A DNA stretch of 64,000 nucleotides from Gordonibacter massiliensis (ex Traore et al. 2017) (GTDB taxonomy: Bacteria; Actinomycetota; Coriobacteriia; Coriobacteriales; Eggerthellaceae). Below the pieces are notes generated by a model. That model was not told the DNA's origin. It did not search any database and saw only the letters and a list, made by a program, of their open reading frames with translations. The translations under genes and the position numbers were made by a program. Below, in pieces: positions 19,355 to 46,440 of this stretch; the stretch's first letter is position 1; each line of letters begins with the position of its first letter. Location: positions 2,662,168 through 2,726,167 of the forward strand of contig LT827128.1 in assembly GCA_900170005.1 (NCBI GenBank), in the 5' to 3' direction.

Positions 19355-20806
19355 ATGCAGAACCTCGGCGCCTTGATAGAAAACCTGAGGAGGCTGACGA
19401 ACGAAACCGAATACGTTGAGTTCAAACGCGATTTCTCAGAGCCCGAGAAAGAGGCGAAAGACATCTGCGCCCTCGCAAACGCGGCGGCGTCCCATGGCGT
19501 CAATGCAGCGTACAAAATATGGGGGATCGATGACACCACGCATGAAGTTGTTGGCACCACGTTCAACCCCAAGACGCGCAAAAAGGGAAATCAGGAATTA
19601 GAGCTGTGGCTGCGCCAGCACTTGAGCGCAAATGCGCATTTCGAGTTCATGGAGCATGTCCACCAAGGCGCTTCGATCGTCGTGCTCAAAATATGGCCCG
19701 CCTACCATCAACCGGTGCAGTACGACAACATCGTCTACATACGCACCGGAAGCTGTACGCAGAAGCTTGCGCACGGCTCGACGCGCGAATCCGAGTTATG
19801 GAAGAAGATCCAGCAAGAAGTATTTGAAGACCAGATTGCTCTGGAAGATGCGTCGGGTCAGGATATCCCTCATTTGCTGGATGTCGAGGCATATTTCAGG
19901 CTTTCTGGCACAACCGCGCCGGAAAGCCTCGAGACGCAAGTGCACTATTTAATTGAAGAGGGCATGCTGCTCCGTCAGGATAACGGTATGCTGTCCATCA
20001 CGAACCTCGGAGCCCTGCTCTTCGCGAAAAATCTTGAGGCGTTTCCTACCGTGAAGCGAAAAGCGGTACGCGTTATGCTCTACCAAGGCCGTGGACGTAT
20101 CGACCTACTGAAAGAGCGGACCTTTGGCCAAGGCTACGCAGTGTGCATGCAAGAGTTGTACGATTACGTCATGGCCCTCGTACCTGCGAAGGAGGATATT
20201 CGCGGCGCGCTGCGCACAACCGTGACCGCTTATCCCTCGATCGCCATCAGGGAGCTTATCGCGAATGCTCTCATTCACCAAGATTTCACGGTAACGGGTG
20301 CCGCTCCTCTCGTCGAACTGTTCGACAGCCGCATCGAGTTCACAAATCCGGGAAGCCCCTTGGTTGACGTCGATCGGATCGTGAATGATCCTCCTCGCTC
20401 TCGCAACGAAAAGCTGGCCTCCCTTATGCGGCGGCTTCGAATGTGCGAAGAGGCGGGAAGCGGCTGGGACAAGATCATCAGCGCGTGCGAGTATTTCCAA
20501 ATGCCGGCCCCAAAGATAGAAATCCGCGATGAGCGGAGCATGCGCGTTTCTCTGAGGCAGGCCGTTCCCTATAAAAATCTGAGCCCCCAAGAGCGTTTGG
20601 ATGCGTGCTATTGGCACGCGTGTATCTGCTATGCGCAAGAGGACTTCGCAACCAACCAAAGCTTGCGGGAGCGTTTTGGCTTGAAAACGTCTAATGCTTC
20701 GCAAATCTCTCGACTTATCAAAGAGGCTGTTGAAAACGGCCTCATCAAACCCGTCGACCCCGACACGTCGCCTCGTTACATGAAGTACGAACCAGCGTGG
20801 GCTTAG
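19355..20806 (+). CDS. AlbA_2 (Schlafen-type) DNA/RNA-binding protein with ATPase-like C-terminus
   Basis: 483 residues. N-terminal AlbA_2 domain (about 15-140): NETEYVEFKRDF, ICALANAAAS, then KIWGIDD and VYIRTGSCTQ. A middle HATPase-like region (AYPSIAIRELIANALIHQDF, ELFDSRIEFTNPGSP, RNEKLASLMRRLRMCEEAGSG) is followed by a winged-helix-like C-terminus. Such proteins are widespread putative regulators, and some are linked to phage defence or stress; no specific role is known here. Base composition is lower in GC than its neighbours, and the gene sits between direct repeats as if it were a cassette. The start is set by the GAAGGAG just upstream. Confidence 0.85.
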   Translation: MQNLGALIENLRRLTNETEYVEFKRDFSEPEKEAKDICALANAAASHGVNAAYKIWGIDDTTHEVVGTTFNPKTRKKGNQELELWLRQHLSANAHFEFMEHVHQGASIVVLKIWPAYHQPVQYDNIVYIRTGSCTQKLAHGSTRESELWKKIQQEVFEDQIALEDASGQDIPHLLDVEAYFRLSGTTAPESLETQVHYLIEEGMLLRQDNGMLSITNLGALLFAKNLEAFPTVKRKAVRVMLYQGRGRIDLLKERTFGQGYAVCMQELYDYVMALVPAKEDIRGALRTTVTAYPSIAIRELIANALIHQDFTVTGAAPLVELFDSRIEFTNPGSPLVDVDRIVNDPPRSRNEKLASLMRRLRMCEEAGSGWDKIISACEYFQMPAPKIEIRDERSMRVSLRQAVPYKNLSPQERLDACYWHACICYAQEDFATNQSLRERFGLKTSNASQISRLIKEAVENGLIKPVDPDTSPRYMKYEPAWA

Positions 20807-21130: not shown

Positions 21131-21853
21131 TCATAAAAGCTCTCCGTGCCTGCGCACCGATTCCGGTGCGCAGTTCTTTTTGTAGTACGGGCTTTTCGGG
21201 TCGAACATGCAATCGACGGTGTGCTTCATTTCCGTGTGGGCATAATTCCAGAATGGATCGAGGTCGTTTTGCATGATGAATTTCCGCGTGGTGGCGAAAT
21301 GCCACTGGAAGCGCCCGAAGATACCCATGACATGGTATTCGGCAAGGAAGTTCAGCACGTCGGCAGGTATCCTGCGTCCGTTGAGCAGGTAGACCAGGTC
21401 GCTTTTGAGGGCAGGTATGTATAGATTGACCAGGTAGTTAAATAAATTGCAGTAGCCGCGCTCATGATTGTGCAGAATGTTTTCGTAGTAGGCTCGATTG
21501 TCTTCCCAATGATACGTTGAAAGCTTGAAATAAGCTCCTTGCTCCAAAGTGTGGTTGGCGCCTTTGATCTGCACGTAGAAAGGCCAGTCGCCGTATCGGT
21601 CTTGTAGCGAAGGATCGGGCTTGATAAGCGGATACTCGGCGAAATGGGTCTCCAGCATGGTTTTGAGGTTGTGGCGGAATATCCAGATGATCAAATCGTC
21701 GATGTTCTCGAAATAGTAGTAGAACGTTTTGCGCTCGCAACCGACGTACGTGGTGATATCTACTACGTTAACCCGGCGGTTTCGCGGCGTGTCGACGATA
21801 AGCTGCATGAAGGCGTCGGCGAATTCCCTTTTTCTGTCCTCCTTGGTACACAC
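21131..21853 (-). CDS. TetR/AcrR family transcriptional regulator
   Basis: 240 residues from a GTG at 21853, chosen over the GTG at 21862 because GGGAG then lies nine bases upstream rather than touching the start. The N-terminal HTH includes NVVDITTYVGCERKTFYYYF. The C-terminal domain is long, with several aromatic residues, and resembles TetR proteins with a DhaS-like C-terminus. It is divergent from the FAD oxidoreductase gene across a 320-base region that holds four evenly spaced sites, which it probably binds. Ligand unknown. Confidence 0.85.
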   Translation of the reverse strand: MCTKEDRKREFADAFMQLIVDTPRNRRVNVVDITTYVGCERKTFYYYFENIDDLIIWIFRHNLKTMLETHFAEYPLIKPDPSLQDRYGDWPFYVQIKGANHTLEQGAYFKLSTYHWEDNRAYYENILHNHERGYCNLFNYLVNLYIPALKSDLVYLLNGRRIPADVLNFLAEYHVMGIFGRFQWHFATTRKFIMQNDLDPFWNYAHTEMKHTVDCMFDPKSPYYKKNCAPESVRRHGELL

Positions 21854-21954
21854 TGAAATCACTCCCGAAAAGACATAGTCGGCAAATGCTCAGGTGAAAA
21901 CCCTCCCGTGGTGCCCATTGTATACAGCGTTTTGCACGAGGCCGCGCATTCCGA

Positions 21955-22097
21955 ACCCACTTTCATAAATGTGGGTCAATTGACGCCGTTCCTTTACCCA
22001 GCTTGGGCCAAGTGGGTGTTTTCACTTTCGGAATCGACCCGATTTCCACATGGTGGGCATTCCTTTTACGGGTTCGACCCAGCCCGGTCGATGTGGG
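21955..22097. promoter_or_regulatory. Array of four ACCC-N12-GTGGG sites
   Basis: Sites begin at 21955, 21996, 22037 and 22077, each ACCC, exactly 12 bases, then GTGGG. Spacing is 41, 41 and 40 bases, about four helical turns. The outermost is a full inverted repeat (ACCCAC / GTGGGT). The spacers between the constant ends are not conserved. The array fills the gap between the divergent TetR and FAD oxidoreductase genes, so it is a strong candidate for a cooperative operator. Confidence 0.75.
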
Positions 22098-22180
22098 CAT
22101 TTCAACGCGTCTCTTCCGCACGCATAATCGAACCATCCCGGGGTGCAAGCAGAAACGCAAACCATTACAAAGGAGGAATC

Positions 22181-23761
22181 ATGGCTGGAGGAAAGTACGA
22201 CTTTGTCGTCCTCGGTGGCGGTCATAACGGACTGCTCACCACGATCTACCTTGCCAAAGCGGGCTTCAAGGTATGCTGCCTTGAAGCATTGGACGAATTC
22301 GGAGGCGGGACGCGATCCGGCGAAGTTATTCCGGGCTACGTCGCCGACATGGGCGGCATGGTTCACAACATGATCTCCAAAACGCCCATCGTTCGTGAAG
22401 ACGAGCTGGGCCTGTTCTCGAAATACGGTTTCGAGTACTGCTATCTCGATTCGCTGTTCTGCTCGATCTTCCCCGACAACACGAATCTGGTCATGACGAA
22501 AGACATTGACGAGTCGTGCAACAACATTGCCAAGTTCTCCGAAAAAGACGCCGTCACCTACCGCAAGTTCCACGACTACATGGTGAACATGCTCAACGTC
22601 GCCGGCATTGGCTCGCAGTCGCCCCCGCCGGCTTACGGTGCCATGATGAACGTGATGAGCATGAGCCCCGAGGGACGCGAGTTCCAGCGCGTGCTGAACT
22701 CCTCATCCCAGCAAATCGTCGAAGAATGGTTCGAAAGCGAGCAGGTGCGCGTGACGTTCACCCGTTGGTGCACGGAGATGATGATCGATCCGCGCGCCAT
22801 CGGCACCGCGTCCCTTCTTTACTTTACGGCCGGTCTGCACGATCCCGACAACCCCGGCGCGCCTTTCCCGAAGGGCGGTTGCATCAACTTCGTTAACGCA
22901 CTCGTTGCTTGTGCCGAGGACAACGGCGCCGACCTGTTCCTCAACGCGTGGGTCGACGATATCACCGTCGAGGGTGGAGAGGTGAAGAGCGTTCGAACGA
23001 AGAACGGCGACGAGTTCTTTGCCGAGAACGCCGTGGTGAGCACCATTCATATCGCCGATGTGTTCGAAATGCTCGGCGACGACGCTCCCGCCGACGATTC
23101 CCATTACGTGAAACTGCTCAAGCACTGCGATTTTGCCGCTTTGAACCAGGCATTCGCACTCGATACGATTCCCGAGTTCAAGACCGGCCCCGAGGTGCTG
23201 AACACGTTCTGCATAGAAGCCGCACCTTGGGAGCCTGAGTATCTGGAAACGTTCAGCACCTATACGCTGGGCAAGTTCAATCCGAAACTGCCCCTTATCA
23301 CTATTCCATCGCTGCATGACCCCACGCGCTGCCCCGAAGGCCATAGCGTGGTTAACGTGTACAGCTATGCTCCTTGGAACCTCTACGGTGACTGGCGCAA
23401 CTGGGAAAAGCACGGCGACGAGCTCAAGAAGCAGGTATGGGACTTCTTCAAGAGTATGACGACGAACATCACCGATGACAACGTGCTGGGCAAATGGGGG
23501 CTCACGCCGCTCGAGTATCAGGAATGGGACCCCGCTTTCCACGAAGGCGACATCGGCCAGATAGGAATGCAACCCAGCCAGATGTACGACATGCGTCCCA
23601 TTGTGGGCAAGGGCCACGAGTATCACGGCGACATCGAGAACCTGTACTTCTTGGGTTCCAGCAGCCATCCCGGCGGCGGTATCGCAGCCGGAGCGCGCGC
23701 GGGCGTTCAGAAGGTGCTTGAAGATTACGGTGTCGATTTCCGCGACGTCATCAGGAAGTAA
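22181..23761 (+). CDS. FAD-dependent oxidoreductase (phytoene-desaturase-like)
   Basis: 526 residues from the ATG with AAAGGAGG five bases upstream; the frame is open further 5' but that part covers the operator array. The N-terminus has the dinucleotide fold FVVLGGGHNGLLTTIYLAKA with FGGGTRSGE, and the C-terminus ends in the FAD-closing motif NLYFLGSSSHPGGGIAAGAR. This is the amine oxidase / phytoene dehydrogenase superfamily. No signal peptide or membrane helix, so probably cytoplasmic. Substrate unknown; co-oriented with a small protein and an MFS transporter, suggesting uptake and transformation of one compound. Confidence 0.85.
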   Translation: MAGGKYDFVVLGGGHNGLLTTIYLAKAGFKVCCLEALDEFGGGTRSGEVIPGYVADMGGMVHNMISKTPIVREDELGLFSKYGFEYCYLDSLFCSIFPDNTNLVMTKDIDESCNNIAKFSEKDAVTYRKFHDYMVNMLNVAGIGSQSPPPAYGAMMNVMSMSPEGREFQRVLNSSSQQIVEEWFESEQVRVTFTRWCTEMMIDPRAIGTASLLYFTAGLHDPDNPGAPFPKGGCINFVNALVACAEDNGADLFLNAWVDDITVEGGEVKSVRTKNGDEFFAENAVVSTIHIADVFEMLGDDAPADDSHYVKLLKHCDFAALNQAFALDTIPEFKTGPEVLNTFCIEAAPWEPEYLETFSTYTLGKFNPKLPLITIPSLHDPTRCPEGHSVVNVYSYAPWNLYGDWRNWEKHGDELKKQVWDFFKSMTTNITDDNVLGKWGLTPLEYQEWDPAFHEGDIGQIGMQPSQMYDMRPIVGKGHEYHGDIENLYFLGSSSHPGGGIAAGARAGVQKVLEDYGVDFRDVIRK

Positions 23762-23838: not shown

Positions 23839-24132
23839 ATGGCTAAGAAAGTGGAAAAACGTCCGGCGATCGTCGCGACCACGGAAGACGGCAGCCCCGT
23901 GGTCGAGGTGTTCGCCATGAGAGTCGAAGGCGACAAGCTCGTCATGGATTGCAAGGCGCTGGGCAGCATGAGGATGGATGTGGTGGTGAGCGCGGAAGGC
24001 ATCGCCGCCGGTTGGCCCGTCATCAAAGAAAGCAGAAGCGCCATCATGGCGTTCGGCAAGCGAGTGCCGGGTGCCATCCGGGCTTTCAAGAAGGCTCATA
24101 AGGCGGCGGCCGTGCAGACTTCTCGACAGTGA
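23839..24132 (+). CDS. Small conserved-looking protein of unknown function
   Basis: 97 residues, basic (many Lys/Arg), no membrane helix, no cysteine motif except one Cys. It reads as a small beta-rich domain (EVFAMRVEGDKLVMDCKALG) followed by a helical basic tail. GAGGAAAGAGAG precedes the ATG. It sits 77 bases after the FAD oxidoreductase and 86 before the MFS gene in the same direction, so it is probably in their operon. I do not recognise the family. Confidence 0.75.
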   Translation: MAKKVEKRPAIVATTEDGSPVVEVFAMRVEGDKLVMDCKALGSMRMDVVVSAEGIAAGWPVIKESRSAIMAFGKRVPGAIRAFKKAHKAAAVQTSRQ

Positions 24133-24218
24133 GGTCCGCTTCCGTTCTTTCCCTGCGCGCTTCTCATGGGTTTTCGGGTATTCATATCTCCGGTCGACGC
24201 CGGTAAAGGGAGTGGGTG

Positions 24219-25487
24219 ATGGCAATGAGCGAAACCGGAACCAAGCGCAGCTTGTTTCCTTATGCGGTCGTAGCGACAGGCATCATGGGTTGTTTCGGAC
24301 CGTGCGCGTTGGCGCTGAGTTGCGCCGGAATATTCTTTACCCCTGTCAGTACTGCCTTGGGAGTGGGCAGGGGCGTGTTCGCGATCTATTTGACGGTTAT
24401 GCTCGTGGCGTGCGCCATAGCGTTGCCGTTCGAAGGCAAGCTCATGGAGAAGAAGGATCTGCGGGTGCTGCTTTCCGCGGCGGTGCTGTGCATCGGTGTG
24501 CCGCTCATCTGCATGTCCTTCTTTAACGAGGTGTGGCAGTTTTATATCGCCGGTGCGTTCATGGGCATTGGACTGGCATTCTTGCTCGTGCTGGCCGTGC
24601 CGACGCTCATCAACCGTTGGTTTAGAAAGAACGTGGGATTCTACATTGGTTTATGCATGGCATTTACCGGCATAGGAGGTGTGGTGTTCAATCTGGTGGG
24701 CGGCATGTTCATTGCCAGCGGCCCTGATGGGTGGCGTATGGGATACCTGGCGTTCGGCGTTCTCGCGCTCGTGCTGGCCCTGCCGTTCACGCTGTTCGGC
24801 ATAAGGAGCTACCCCGGCGACAAGGGCCTGACGCCCGTGGGCAGCGAGGCTGCGGTGGCGAATGGCGAAGCGGCGGTGGCGGCGCTCACGGGTCCCACCG
24901 CATCGCGCGCCATGAAGACGCTGTCGTTCTTTGCGTTGGCGATTTTCGCCGGGTTCATCAACCTGGCCATCAATTTCTACCAGTATCTTCCATCCTATGC
25001 GTCGTCGCTGACGCAGTATCCTGACATCGTGGCCATCGCCGCCACGCTTGCGTCTGCGGCCATGCTGGGTCAAGCCATCGGCAAAGTGCTTTTGGGCATC
25101 ATCAACGACAAGCTGAGCGTGTACGCGGGGCTCGGACTGTCCACAGGGTGCGGGGCTGTGGGCCTGCTGGTCATGTGGCTGGTTCCTTCCTCGGTGCCGG
25201 CGATGCTTGCAGGTGGGTTCCTGTTCGGCGTGTTCTACGCCAGCGCGACCGTGCTTGCGCCGCTTATCACGCGTACGATCTTCGGTACGCGCGAGTACTC
25301 GACCATATACTCGCGCGTTGCGATGGTTGGCTCTCTGTGCGGCGCGTTCGCAGCAAGCGTTTGGGGTTTCATCGTTGACGGCACGGGCTTCTCGTTCGTG
25401 TTCGCCATCGGCATCGGCGGTGCTGTCATCGTGTTCTTGCTGGGCTTGCTGGCATTGAGGTCTGGGAAGGGACTTGCCGACGAGTAG
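24219..25487 (+). CDS. MFS transporter (oxalate/formate antiporter-like)
   Basis: 422 residues, 12 predicted helices. The pattern resembles OFA/monocarboxylate MFS members, with a central loop at about 205-225 and ALLASRSG-type ends. Starts at GTG 24216, ATG 24219 and ATG 24225 are all possible; ATG 24219 is best placed after AAAGGGAG. It likely carries the substrate or product of the FAD oxidoreductase two genes upstream. Substrate unknown. Confidence 0.85.
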   Translation: MAMSETGTKRSLFPYAVVATGIMGCFGPCALALSCAGIFFTPVSTALGVGRGVFAIYLTVMLVACAIALPFEGKLMEKKDLRVLLSAAVLCIGVPLICMSFFNEVWQFYIAGAFMGIGLAFLLVLAVPTLINRWFRKNVGFYIGLCMAFTGIGGVVFNLVGGMFIASGPDGWRMGYLAFGVLALVLALPFTLFGIRSYPGDKGLTPVGSEAAVANGEAAVAALTGPTASRAMKTLSFFALAIFAGFINLAINFYQYLPSYASSLTQYPDIVAIAATLASAAMLGQAIGKVLLGIINDKLSVYAGLGLSTGCGAVGLLVMWLVPSSVPAMLAGGFLFGVFYASATVLAPLITRTIFGTREYSTIYSRVAMVGSLCGAFAASVWGFIVDGTGFSFVFAIGIGGAVIVFLLGLLALRSGKGLADE

Positions 25488-44418: not shown

Positions 44419-46440
44419 GTGCAAATCACGAGTGATCCTCATAATGCCGCTGTCGCGCCCGTCCGGCGCTTCCTTGCGACCCGCGTCGCGCTGATTCTCG
44501 CTGCGGCGGTTCTTGCGGCGGTTGCGCTGTTGGCCGTATCGCCCTCGTCGGCGTTCGCCAAATCGTACGACATGACGAAGGTGGACATAACCGCCCAGGC
44601 CGAGACAGACGGTTCGCTGCATGCGGTGGAGCAGCGCACGTTTGACTTCAACGGCGACTTCACAGCCGTGTGGTGGACGTTCAGCGGGCTGCCTGCGAAC
44701 GCCGAGCTCAAGGTGAACTCCATGCGCATGGCCCAGGTGGACGCAAGCGGCAACGTGACGGGGGAGTGGGAGACGCTGCCCAGCGTGCCGTTCGTGCTGA
44801 GCTGGCGCGATTCCGGCGGGCCCGGCACCGACGCGTACTCCGTCGACCTGCCGAAGAACACGGTGTACGCCTTCTTCAACGTGTCGGACGAGAAGGCGGT
44901 GATAGAGCTGGACTACACCGTGGTCAACGGCGTGCAGGCGTACAAGGACGTGGGCGAGGTGACTTGGAAATACGTTGCCGACCAGTGGGAGGAGGCGTCC
45001 GAGAACGTCACAATGACGCTGGCGCTGCCGGTTCCGCAGGGAGCGGACGTGGTGCCCGGCGAGAACGTGCGCGCTTGGGGGCACGGTCCGCTTGACGGAT
45101 CGCTTTCCATCAACGCCGACGGCAGCATCACGTACACGGTGCCCCGGGTGAACGCCGGGCAATACGCCGAGGCGCGCGTCGTGTTCCCTGTGGAGTGGCT
45201 CACGAACCTTTCGCCCGAAGCCGCGAAGCTCCATTCGAACGTAACCCATCTCGACCAGGTGCTCACCGAAGAAGCGGCCTGGGCCGACAAGGCCAACCGC
45301 GATCGCGTGCTGTCGCTGGCCTTCATCATAGGGTGCGGCGTGGTGTGCGTGCTGCTCATCGCATGGGCGCTGTGGTCCTACTTCAGGTTCGGCAAAGAGC
45401 ACGAGCCCGATTTCACCGAAGAGTATTGGCGCGACGTGCCCGATCCGAGCGTGCATCCCGCCGTTATCGGGCGGTTGTGGCGTTGGGATCGCGAAAGCCA
45501 AGACGACTTCACGGCCACGCTCATGCACCTATCGCACGTGGGGGCCATCCGCATCGACCGCGGCAGCTACGAGAAGCCCAAGAAGTTCGGCGGCACGGAA
45601 ACGGTGGAGGACTACTACCTCACGCGCATGCCTGCCGTGGCCGATACGATGACGAACCCCATAGACACCCAGACGCTCGGACTGCTGTTCGGCACGATAG
45701 CCGGCGGACGCGATTCGCTGTGGTTCGGCACCATCCAGCAGTACGGCAAAGACCACCCCGACGACTTCGTCAGCTCCATGAAAGGATGGCAGGGCATCCT
45801 GTCGGCCGAAACCAACCGTTGCGATTTCTTCGAGGCCAAGGGCAAACGCTACCAAGGGTATCTCGTGGCCCTCGCCATCGTGGTGGCGCTGGCGGGCGTG
45901 GGCATCGGCGTTATGACGGAGAACTTCATCCCGCTCGTGTTCATGCTGCCCACGGCTATCGCGCTGGGTGTGATAGGCAACTACATGCCGCGCCGCAGCG
46001 TGGCGGGCAACAACCTGGTGGCGAAGTGCAAGGCGTTGCGCAATTGGCTGCGCGACTTCTCGTCGCTCGACGAACGTCCGCCCACCGACGTGAAGGTGTG
46101 GGGCGAGTTCATGGTGTACGCCTACGTGTTCGGCATTGCGAAGCAGGTCATGCACGAGTTGCAGACGCGGGTGCCCGAGCTGTTCGAGCCCGATGCGGGT
46201 ATGGCGTACGGCTACGGTTACGTGCCGTGGTGGTTCTGGTACGCGCCCACGCACGGCGCCAGCGGCGCGATCATGCCCTCGGCGAGCGACCTGTTGAACA
46301 CATCCGTGACGAACACCATGAACACCGCGCAGGCTGCGATCTCCGGTGCGAGCGGCAACTTCTCGAGCGGCGGCGGCTTCGGCGGCGGCTTCTCCGGCGG
46401 CGGAGGCGGCGGCTTCGGCGGAGGCGGCGGCGCGCGATAA
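44419..46440 (+). CDS. DUF2207 family membrane protein
   Basis: 673 residues from a GTG with AAGGAG seven bases upstream. Signal-like helix (about 18-45), a DUF2207 beta-domain outside (about 48-290), then a helix (about 295-315), a cytoplasmic domain, two more helices (about 480-525) and a glycine-rich tail (GGGFGGGFSGGGGGGFGGG). DUF2207 proteins are of unknown function and often pair with LemA, encoded 3.7 kb upstream. The Gly tail is typical of the family. Confidence 0.88.
   Translation: MQITSDPHNAAVAPVRRFLATRVALILAAAVLAAVALLAVSPSSAFAKSYDMTKVDITAQAETDGSLHAVEQRTFDFNGDFTAVWWTFSGLPANAELKVNSMRMAQVDASGNVTGEWETLPSVPFVLSWRDSGGPGTDAYSVDLPKNTVYAFFNVSDEKAVIELDYTVVNGVQAYKDVGEVTWKYVADQWEEASENVTMTLALPVPQGADVVPGENVRAWGHGPLDGSLSINADGSITYTVPRVNAGQYAEARVVFPVEWLTNLSPEAAKLHSNVTHLDQVLTEEAAWADKANRDRVLSLAFIIGCGVVCVLLIAWALWSYFRFGKEHEPDFTEEYWRDVPDPSVHPAVIGRLWRWDRESQDDFTATLMHLSHVGAIRIDRGSYEKPKKFGGTETVEDYYLTRMPAVADTMTNPIDTQTLGLLFGTIAGGRDSLWFGTIQQYGKDHPDDFVSSMKGWQGILSAETNRCDFFEAKGKRYQGYLVALAIVVALAGVGIGVMTENFIPLVFMLPTAIALGVIGNYMPRRSVAGNNLVAKCKALRNWLRDFSSLDERPPTDVKVWGEFMVYAYVFGIAKQVMHELQTRVPELFEPDAGMAYGYGYVPWWFWYAPTHGASGAIMPSASDLLNTSVTNTMNTAQAAISGASGNFSSGGGFGGGFSGGGGGGFGGGGGAR

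Follow-up and report, generated by a model that had tools for sequence, protein, structure and literature searches.

An evenly spaced array of predicted operators between a DhaS-like TetR-type regulator gene and an FAD oxidoreductase operon in Gordonibacter massiliensis

Among the TetR-family regulators that act through several dimers, EthR of Mycobacterium tuberculosis binds a 55-bp operator cooperatively as an octamer (PMC9210681). QacR, CgmR and RolR bind as pairs of dimers, the operator being 32 bp long for CgmR and 29 bp for RolR (PMC9210681). In Streptomyces, the TetR-family protein AtrA was described to activate an enzyme gene that is divergent from its own, over a distance of 425 bp (PMC3511530). 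One paper tested nine TetR-type regulators of this genus: the five with less than 200 bp to the divergent gene all repressed it, and of the four with more than 200 bp AtrA activated and three were without effect; exceptions to the 200-bp rule are repressors acting over 280, 409 and 898 bp (PMC3511530). DhaS, the closest characterised relative of the regulator analyzed here, has been cited as activating the dha operon (PMC6534649).

In our study we analyzed a stretch of 64,000 nucleotides of G. massiliensis (the window), which carries a TetR-type regulator gene (tetR) divergent from an FAD oxidoreductase operon. The regulator resembles EthR in its TetR-family fold and in the several dimers per divergent intergenic region, four of which would bind in the window. 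However, the EthR sites are packed in 55 bp (PMC9210681), whereas the window holds four separate palindromes that extend over 144 bp, with gaps of 18-19 bp between neighbours. More than one dimer per regulatory region is also predicted here as in QacR, CgmR and RolR, but these use one compact operator (PMC9210681) instead of a 41-bp repeat. With AtrA the locus shares the long intergenic region, the enzyme target and activation (PMC3511530), the latter being only proposed for the window; an even operator array is not mentioned for AtrA in the accessible text of that source. In the literature searched, a 41-bp TetR operator array appeared in no title or abstract opening among the matches listed. 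The evenly spaced array would be the new element within an already known type of multi-operator control by TetR-type proteins, with a mechanism that is proposed here. The original prediction had called such cooperative binding by several dimers rare for TetR proteins, which is partly right in view of the EthR octamer and the dimer pairs of QacR, CgmR and RolR (PMC9210681).

The intergenic DNA between tetR and the FAD gene is 327 bp long and contains four ACCC-N12-GTGGG sites, starting at 21955, 21996, 22037 and 22077, which corresponds to start-to-start distances of 41, 41 and 40 bp. All four were found between the divergent genes exactly as the original prediction had claimed. The features of the locus are:

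21131..21853, minus strand: TetR-type regulator, DhaS-like, 240 aa, predicted binder of the array (from sequence, fold and orthologue alignment)
21917..21922, minus strand: predicted -10 of the tetR promoter, TACAAT, 32 nt from site 1
21955..21976, no strand: predicted operator site 1, ACCCACTTTCATAAATGTGGGT, 27.3 bits, top score of the four, tetR-proximal
21996..22017, no strand: predicted operator site 2, ACCCAGCTTGGGCCAAGTGGGT, 20.9 bits
22037..22058, no strand: predicted operator site 3, ACCCGATTTCCACATGGTGGGC, 13.8 bits, lowest of the four
22077..22098, no strand: predicted operator site 4, ACCCAGCCCGGTCGATGTGGGC, 17.0 bits, FAD-promoter-proximal
22123..22128, plus strand: predicted -10 of the FAD-operon promoter, CATAAT, 24 nt past site 4
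22181..23761, plus strand: FAD-dependent oxidoreductase, CrtI/CrtO-like, 526 aa, 85-88% identical at five orthologous loci
23839..24132, plus strand: conserved 97-aa protein, family not assigned, found close to the FAD gene in 12 of 15 examined loci
24216..25487, plus strand: MFS transporter, also encoded at the five orthologous loci (the copy at L072 is cut by the locus end)

Around these genes, a strong GC-rich hairpin followed by T-rich sequence lies at the tetR 3' end (21150-21173, plus strand), and the gene at 19355-20806, past this end, encodes AlbA_2 and RecG-C-terminal-like ATPase domains (Pfam). At another locus (L081:4817-8084) two tandem FAD oxidoreductase genes of the same family stand behind a single tetR.

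On both strands of the window the ACCC-N12-GTGGG pattern matched six times, compared with 0.55 expected (100 shuffles, maximum 2); one of the six is site 1 read on the minus strand and another stands alone at 45949. At least two matches occurred in none of 20,000 dinucleotide-shuffled versions of the intergenic region, and a fourfold occurrence of any 4+5 gapped word (gap 0-20) in none of 400 shuffles. A generic detector for evenly spaced three-copy gapped words was positive in one of 2000 mononucleotide shuffles. In the whole genome the single-site pattern was not enriched, with 38 matches when the array is counted, compared with 35 for the reversed control. The signal is the clustering and spacing of the sites rather than the frequency of the single site.

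The sites had been thought to repeat at almost the same helical phase, and this was partly right. At 10.5 bp per turn sites 1 to 4 lie at 0, 326, 291 and 223 degrees; the steps between successive sites amount to 34, 35 and 68 degrees, and site 1 is turned by 137 degrees against site 4. Therefore, the array is not strictly on one DNA face. Moreover, the 18-19 bp between palindromes mean that dimer-dimer contact would require DNA bending, and this separation speaks against the suggested filament-like binding.

For comparison, 138 genomes of the family were searched. At E <= 1e-150, 13 genomes contributed 17 FAD genes, counting the window's own, and the combination with the TetR hits gave 16 loci. 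Among these, five are orthologues of the window locus, with a divergent tetR and a TetR identity of 57-63% over the main aligned segment. All five carry three sites, spaced 41/41 bp in four loci and 40/41 bp in one, and the window thus has one whole unit more. Over the six array loci 11 of the 13 spacings are 41 bp and two are 40 bp, and ACCC and TGG are kept at all 19 sites. Neither the ends nor the spacing was missing at any of the five orthologues, although the right-hand end is TGG and not the full GTGGG at most of their sites. It should be considered that the five loci are not independent, as two are 92% identical in the intergenic region and all come from two genera (three and two loci). 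The view that the sites are selected, operator-like and part of the tetR/FAD divergent pair was borne out at these orthologues.

After alignment, the intergenic region of the window is 48-52% identical to those of the orthologues. The flanks contain many indels and the leader from the last site to the start codon ranges from 78 to 114 nt among loci, but the distance from site to site changes by at most 1 bp. A functional selection of the 41-bp spacing is highly likely. Alternatively, a 41-bp unit could recently have been duplicated in tandem, the spacing having no role. In favour of this, 14 of 32 non-motif positions agree between units 3 and 4 of the window, 13 between units 1 and 2 and 12 between units 2 and 4; however, the remaining three pairs share 7 of 32, and the spacing is kept (net change of at most 1 bp) at loci that are about 50% identical and whose flanks are full of indels. 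Duplication may be the origin of the array, but it is hardly the reason for its persistence, and we regard it as a highly unlikely account of the spacing.

A pattern of two neighbouring sites with start-to-start distances of 39-42 matched in 17 of the 138 genomes. Overlapping pairs, meaning three or more sites, were found in six of them, always at the tetR/FAD locus; the other 11 contain isolated pairs or, in one case, six copies of a repeated sequence. The detector for evenly spaced gapped words was positive at all six array loci, at none of nine paralogous loci and at two of 41 other TetR relatives, where the positive sequence is a T-run or AT-rich. Upstream of the TetR gene of L022 there are AT-rich repeats like ATGCAAAATT with a 22-bp spacing. 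A single clade for the array loci was not supported by the tree, which requires two changes and places the paralogues L080 and L082 within the same group of eight as the array loci. Overall, the array is real, beyond chance, conserved and evenly spaced.

We also considered a wider regulon. A longer pattern with one mismatch gave 44 rows in the six genomes. Of these, 17 belong to array loci or to the operator of L080, and the other 27 lie elsewhere, six of the latter being one sequence that occurs a single time in each genome. With the reversed control 24 rows were obtained in total. Since the single site was not enriched in the genome and the 44 rows stand against 24 in the control, no wider regulon is claimed and this candidate was dropped.

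The 19 sites yield a symmetric 22-bp palindrome with the consensus ACCCACTTTCCGGAAAGTGGGT. The operator of DhaS from L. lactis is likewise a 22-bp inverted repeat. The N12 spacers, which had been described as not conserved, are in fact not free, as T is prevalent at positions 7-9 and A at positions 14-15 of the 19 sites. A matrix from the 15 orthologue sites placed the four window sites, and no other, above the 95% shuffle threshold. Conversely, a matrix from the four window sites recovered three sites at three of the five orthologues, at two of which it also gave one or two additional hits. At the remaining two orthologues it detected two sites of three.

The palindrome is also found beyond the array loci. 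While all six array loci, as the training set, have it beside the regulator gene, the 19-site matrix exceeded its own 95% shuffle threshold at eight of ten held-out paralogous loci (seven of nine, and L133), compared with three of 39 other TetR relatives without an FAD neighbour, which is near the 5% expected. The controls comprise the TetR relatives L017-L040 and L054-L070 (41 loci, two of them with FAD neighbours), a part of all TetR hits. With this matrix a significant site was absent at L073 (5.9 against a threshold of 6.0) and at L083. L078 leaves its contig before any FAD gene, so that only the region upstream of tetR could be covered, and its FAD relative is on another contig. The paralogous loci have the operator but not the 41-bp array (none of nine). 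Since the palindrome occurs at eight of ten held-out paralogous loci and at three of 39 other relatives, the adjacent TetR-type protein very probably uses it as its operator; in sequence terms the palindrome goes with one TetR branch and its FAD partners.

The L133 site has perfect 10-bp arms around 2 bp and scores 28.5 bits, higher than every training site. It forms the core of a 48-bp inverted repeat with two 23-bp arms (L133:2180-2227), which might also be an RNA hairpin. In the gene order of L133 the 97-aa gene is placed before the FAD gene. Besides, operator-like pairs at 32-34 bp, several of them sub-threshold, were seen in the intergenic regions of L071, L079, L133 and L084; this distance is near three helical turns and is a hint, not a test. 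The recognition helix covaries with the operator flank, CERKTFY going with ACCCAC and xDRKTFY with CCCCA. However, this pairing largely follows the tree and was therefore not counted as evidence.

The start of tetR at 21853 is supported by the orthologue alignment. The Pfam TetR_N domain was sub-threshold in the regulator (14.1 bits against 24). An AlphaFold2 model (mean pLDDT 86.7, 11 helices) predicts an N-terminal HTH of helices 1-3 followed by a helical ligand and dimer domain, as in the TetR fold. The 50 structural matches listed are all transcriptional regulators, most of them titled or known as TetR family, and the closest solved relatives by sequence and fold are 4mk6 (the top match; Z 16.1, rmsd 2.8, 185 residues) and 2iu5 (Z 14.2, rmsd 4.1, 175 residues) of the DhaS group. 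We therefore place the regulator in the broader DhaS-like group (DHSK_reg, TIGR02366). It is not DhaS itself, since it scores 36.5 bits against the TIGR02366 cut-off of 129 and is not linked to a dihydroxyacetone kinase operon. It further differs from DhaS in its length (240 aa versus about 190), in its partner, an FAD oxidoreductase/MFS operon, and in its four evenly spaced operators.

Two of the six array loci, which belong to one genus, have a broken tetR, with a frameshift in L074 (L074:2928-3577, minus strand) and a frameshift and two stops in L072 (L072:3186-3829, minus strand). The frameshifts are at different positions and the arrays are intact. This weakens the direct link between regulator and array and could reflect recent decay, sequence error or binding by a paralogue in trans. 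For L072 the latter is possible, because its genome also encodes the paralogue L080, whose recognition helix is nearly identical to that of the window (CERKTFYRYF and CERKTFYYYF) and whose operator is of the same sequence type as the array sites. The persistence of arrays beside a broken tetR would also suit an unrelated binding protein with the adjacent TetR being incidental, and 12-TM LuxR-type proteins were reported to activate catechol dehydroxylase genes in Eggerthella lenta (PMC9734109). However, this is highly improbable given that the palindrome follows the paralogous tetR/FAD loci, that arrays of three or more sites occur nowhere else in the 138 genomes and that a dimeric TetR-type protein would fit a 22-bp palindrome. 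On the sequence evidence we are strongly confident that the binder is the adjacent TetR or a close paralogue.

The position of the array relative to the predicted promoters was nearly constant. In the window the -10-like hexamer of the FAD operon starts 24 nt past site 4; in the five orthologues it starts 25 nt past site 3. The distance from the tetR -10 to site 1 is 32 nt in the window and 34 nt in the five orthologues. A hexamer with at least four of six matches to TATAAT was present 24-26 nt past the proximal site at ten of 13 loci (all six arrays, four of seven paralogues), L083, L078 and L133 being left out of this count. The mean TATAAT match in the 24-26 bin was 3.92 of 6, compared with 1.69-2.77 in the other bins (3-59 nt). 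L080, L082 and L084 do not follow this rule. The proximal sites at L071, L073 and L081 were chosen by eye below the matrix threshold; without these three the rule holds at seven of ten loci, six of which are orthologues and thus not independent. L133 has a TAAAAC 24 nt past a second site that scores just under the threshold (7.0 against 7.3).

By reading of the sequences, the -35 paired with the FAD -10 at 16-18 nt has at most three of six matches at the six array loci, and in L076 and L077 a rival pair (TTCACA, 17 nt, TCCAGT or TCCAAT) scores equal or better. A consensus promoter scan of the window region found no promoter. All sites are located upstream of the two predicted -35 positions and none overlaps a predicted -10, while 1-2 bp separate the end of the last site from the -35 position. 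The array would accordingly fill the space between two predicted promoters with nearly fixed distances at both end sites. Just past site 3, between the last operator and the -10, L072 and L075 have a palindrome-like element, TTGTGCAT-N2-GCACAA, which is possibly the site of another regulator; it is less perfect in L074, L076 and L077 and was not seen in the window.

The predicted promoters would put the array outside both transcripts, which speaks against the repeats acting as RNA hairpins of an attenuator or riboswitch-like leader. Each site could self-pair as a short stem, and a terminator-like match lies over site 3, in a scan with seven matches against 4.9 (sd 2.2) expected. However, the folding energy was ordinary (z -0.35), as 63 of 200 shuffles were at least as stable. 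We rejected this reading on the folding energy and consider it extremely unlikely.

The location of the sites upstream of the -35 positions, the poor FAD -35 and the kept -10 distance together fit an activator that touches RNA polymerase. The activator role of DhaS as the closest characterised relative was also counted for activation, and the intergenic length of 327 bp speaks weakly against simple repression in the light of the Streptomyces regulators. Alternatively, the TetR protein without ligand may cover the array and block the -35 of the FAD operon as well as that of its own promoter until a ligand releases it, with the extra sites tightening repression. Most studied TetR-family regulators are indeed repressors, some over long intergenic regions (PMC3511530), and the end of the last site beside the -35 position would allow occlusion. 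On the other hand, the predicted -10s are free of sites, all sites are upstream of the -35 positions, the -10 distance is also kept at four of seven paralogous loci and DhaS activates. Repression is possible, but we see it as rather doubtful. It might also be argued that the array serves the autoregulation of tetR and leaves the FAD operon unaffected, as did three of the four Streptomyces regulators at more than 200 bp (PMC3511530), and the highest-scoring window site is the tetR-proximal one. This is very improbable, since the last site holds its place beside the FAD promoter at six of six loci and the FAD gene accompanies the operator at paralogous loci. We therefore somewhat favour activation of the FAD operon by RNA polymerase contact, perhaps cooperative, over repression.

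In the activation model, dimers of the regulator would occupy the sites, and the dimer at the last site, centred near -48 of the FAD promoter, would contact RNA polymerase and thereby activate transcription. The other sites may raise the occupancy, or DNA bending may let the dimers meet, which would lead to a steeper response to a ligand. Site 1 would control tetR itself. Taken as a whole, the explanation that the array represents four 22-bp palindromic operators of the divergent DhaS-like TetR regulator between two core promoters is reasonably probable. A more tentative extension, which we consider rather unlikely, is a modular array in which 41-bp units are added or removed whole, with nearly fixed distances from the end sites to the two promoters, and phased dimers form one higher-order complex that switches or activates both divergent promoters simultaneously.

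Natural arrays with a fixed spacing and a differing copy number are good tests of how spacing and site number affect the sharpness of a switch. The Eggerthella family comprises gut bacteria that are known to transform drugs and diet compounds. For this family the palindrome provides a ready motif for a TetR branch beside FAD-oxidoreductase operons, and with a reporter it would make the inducer of the operon findable.
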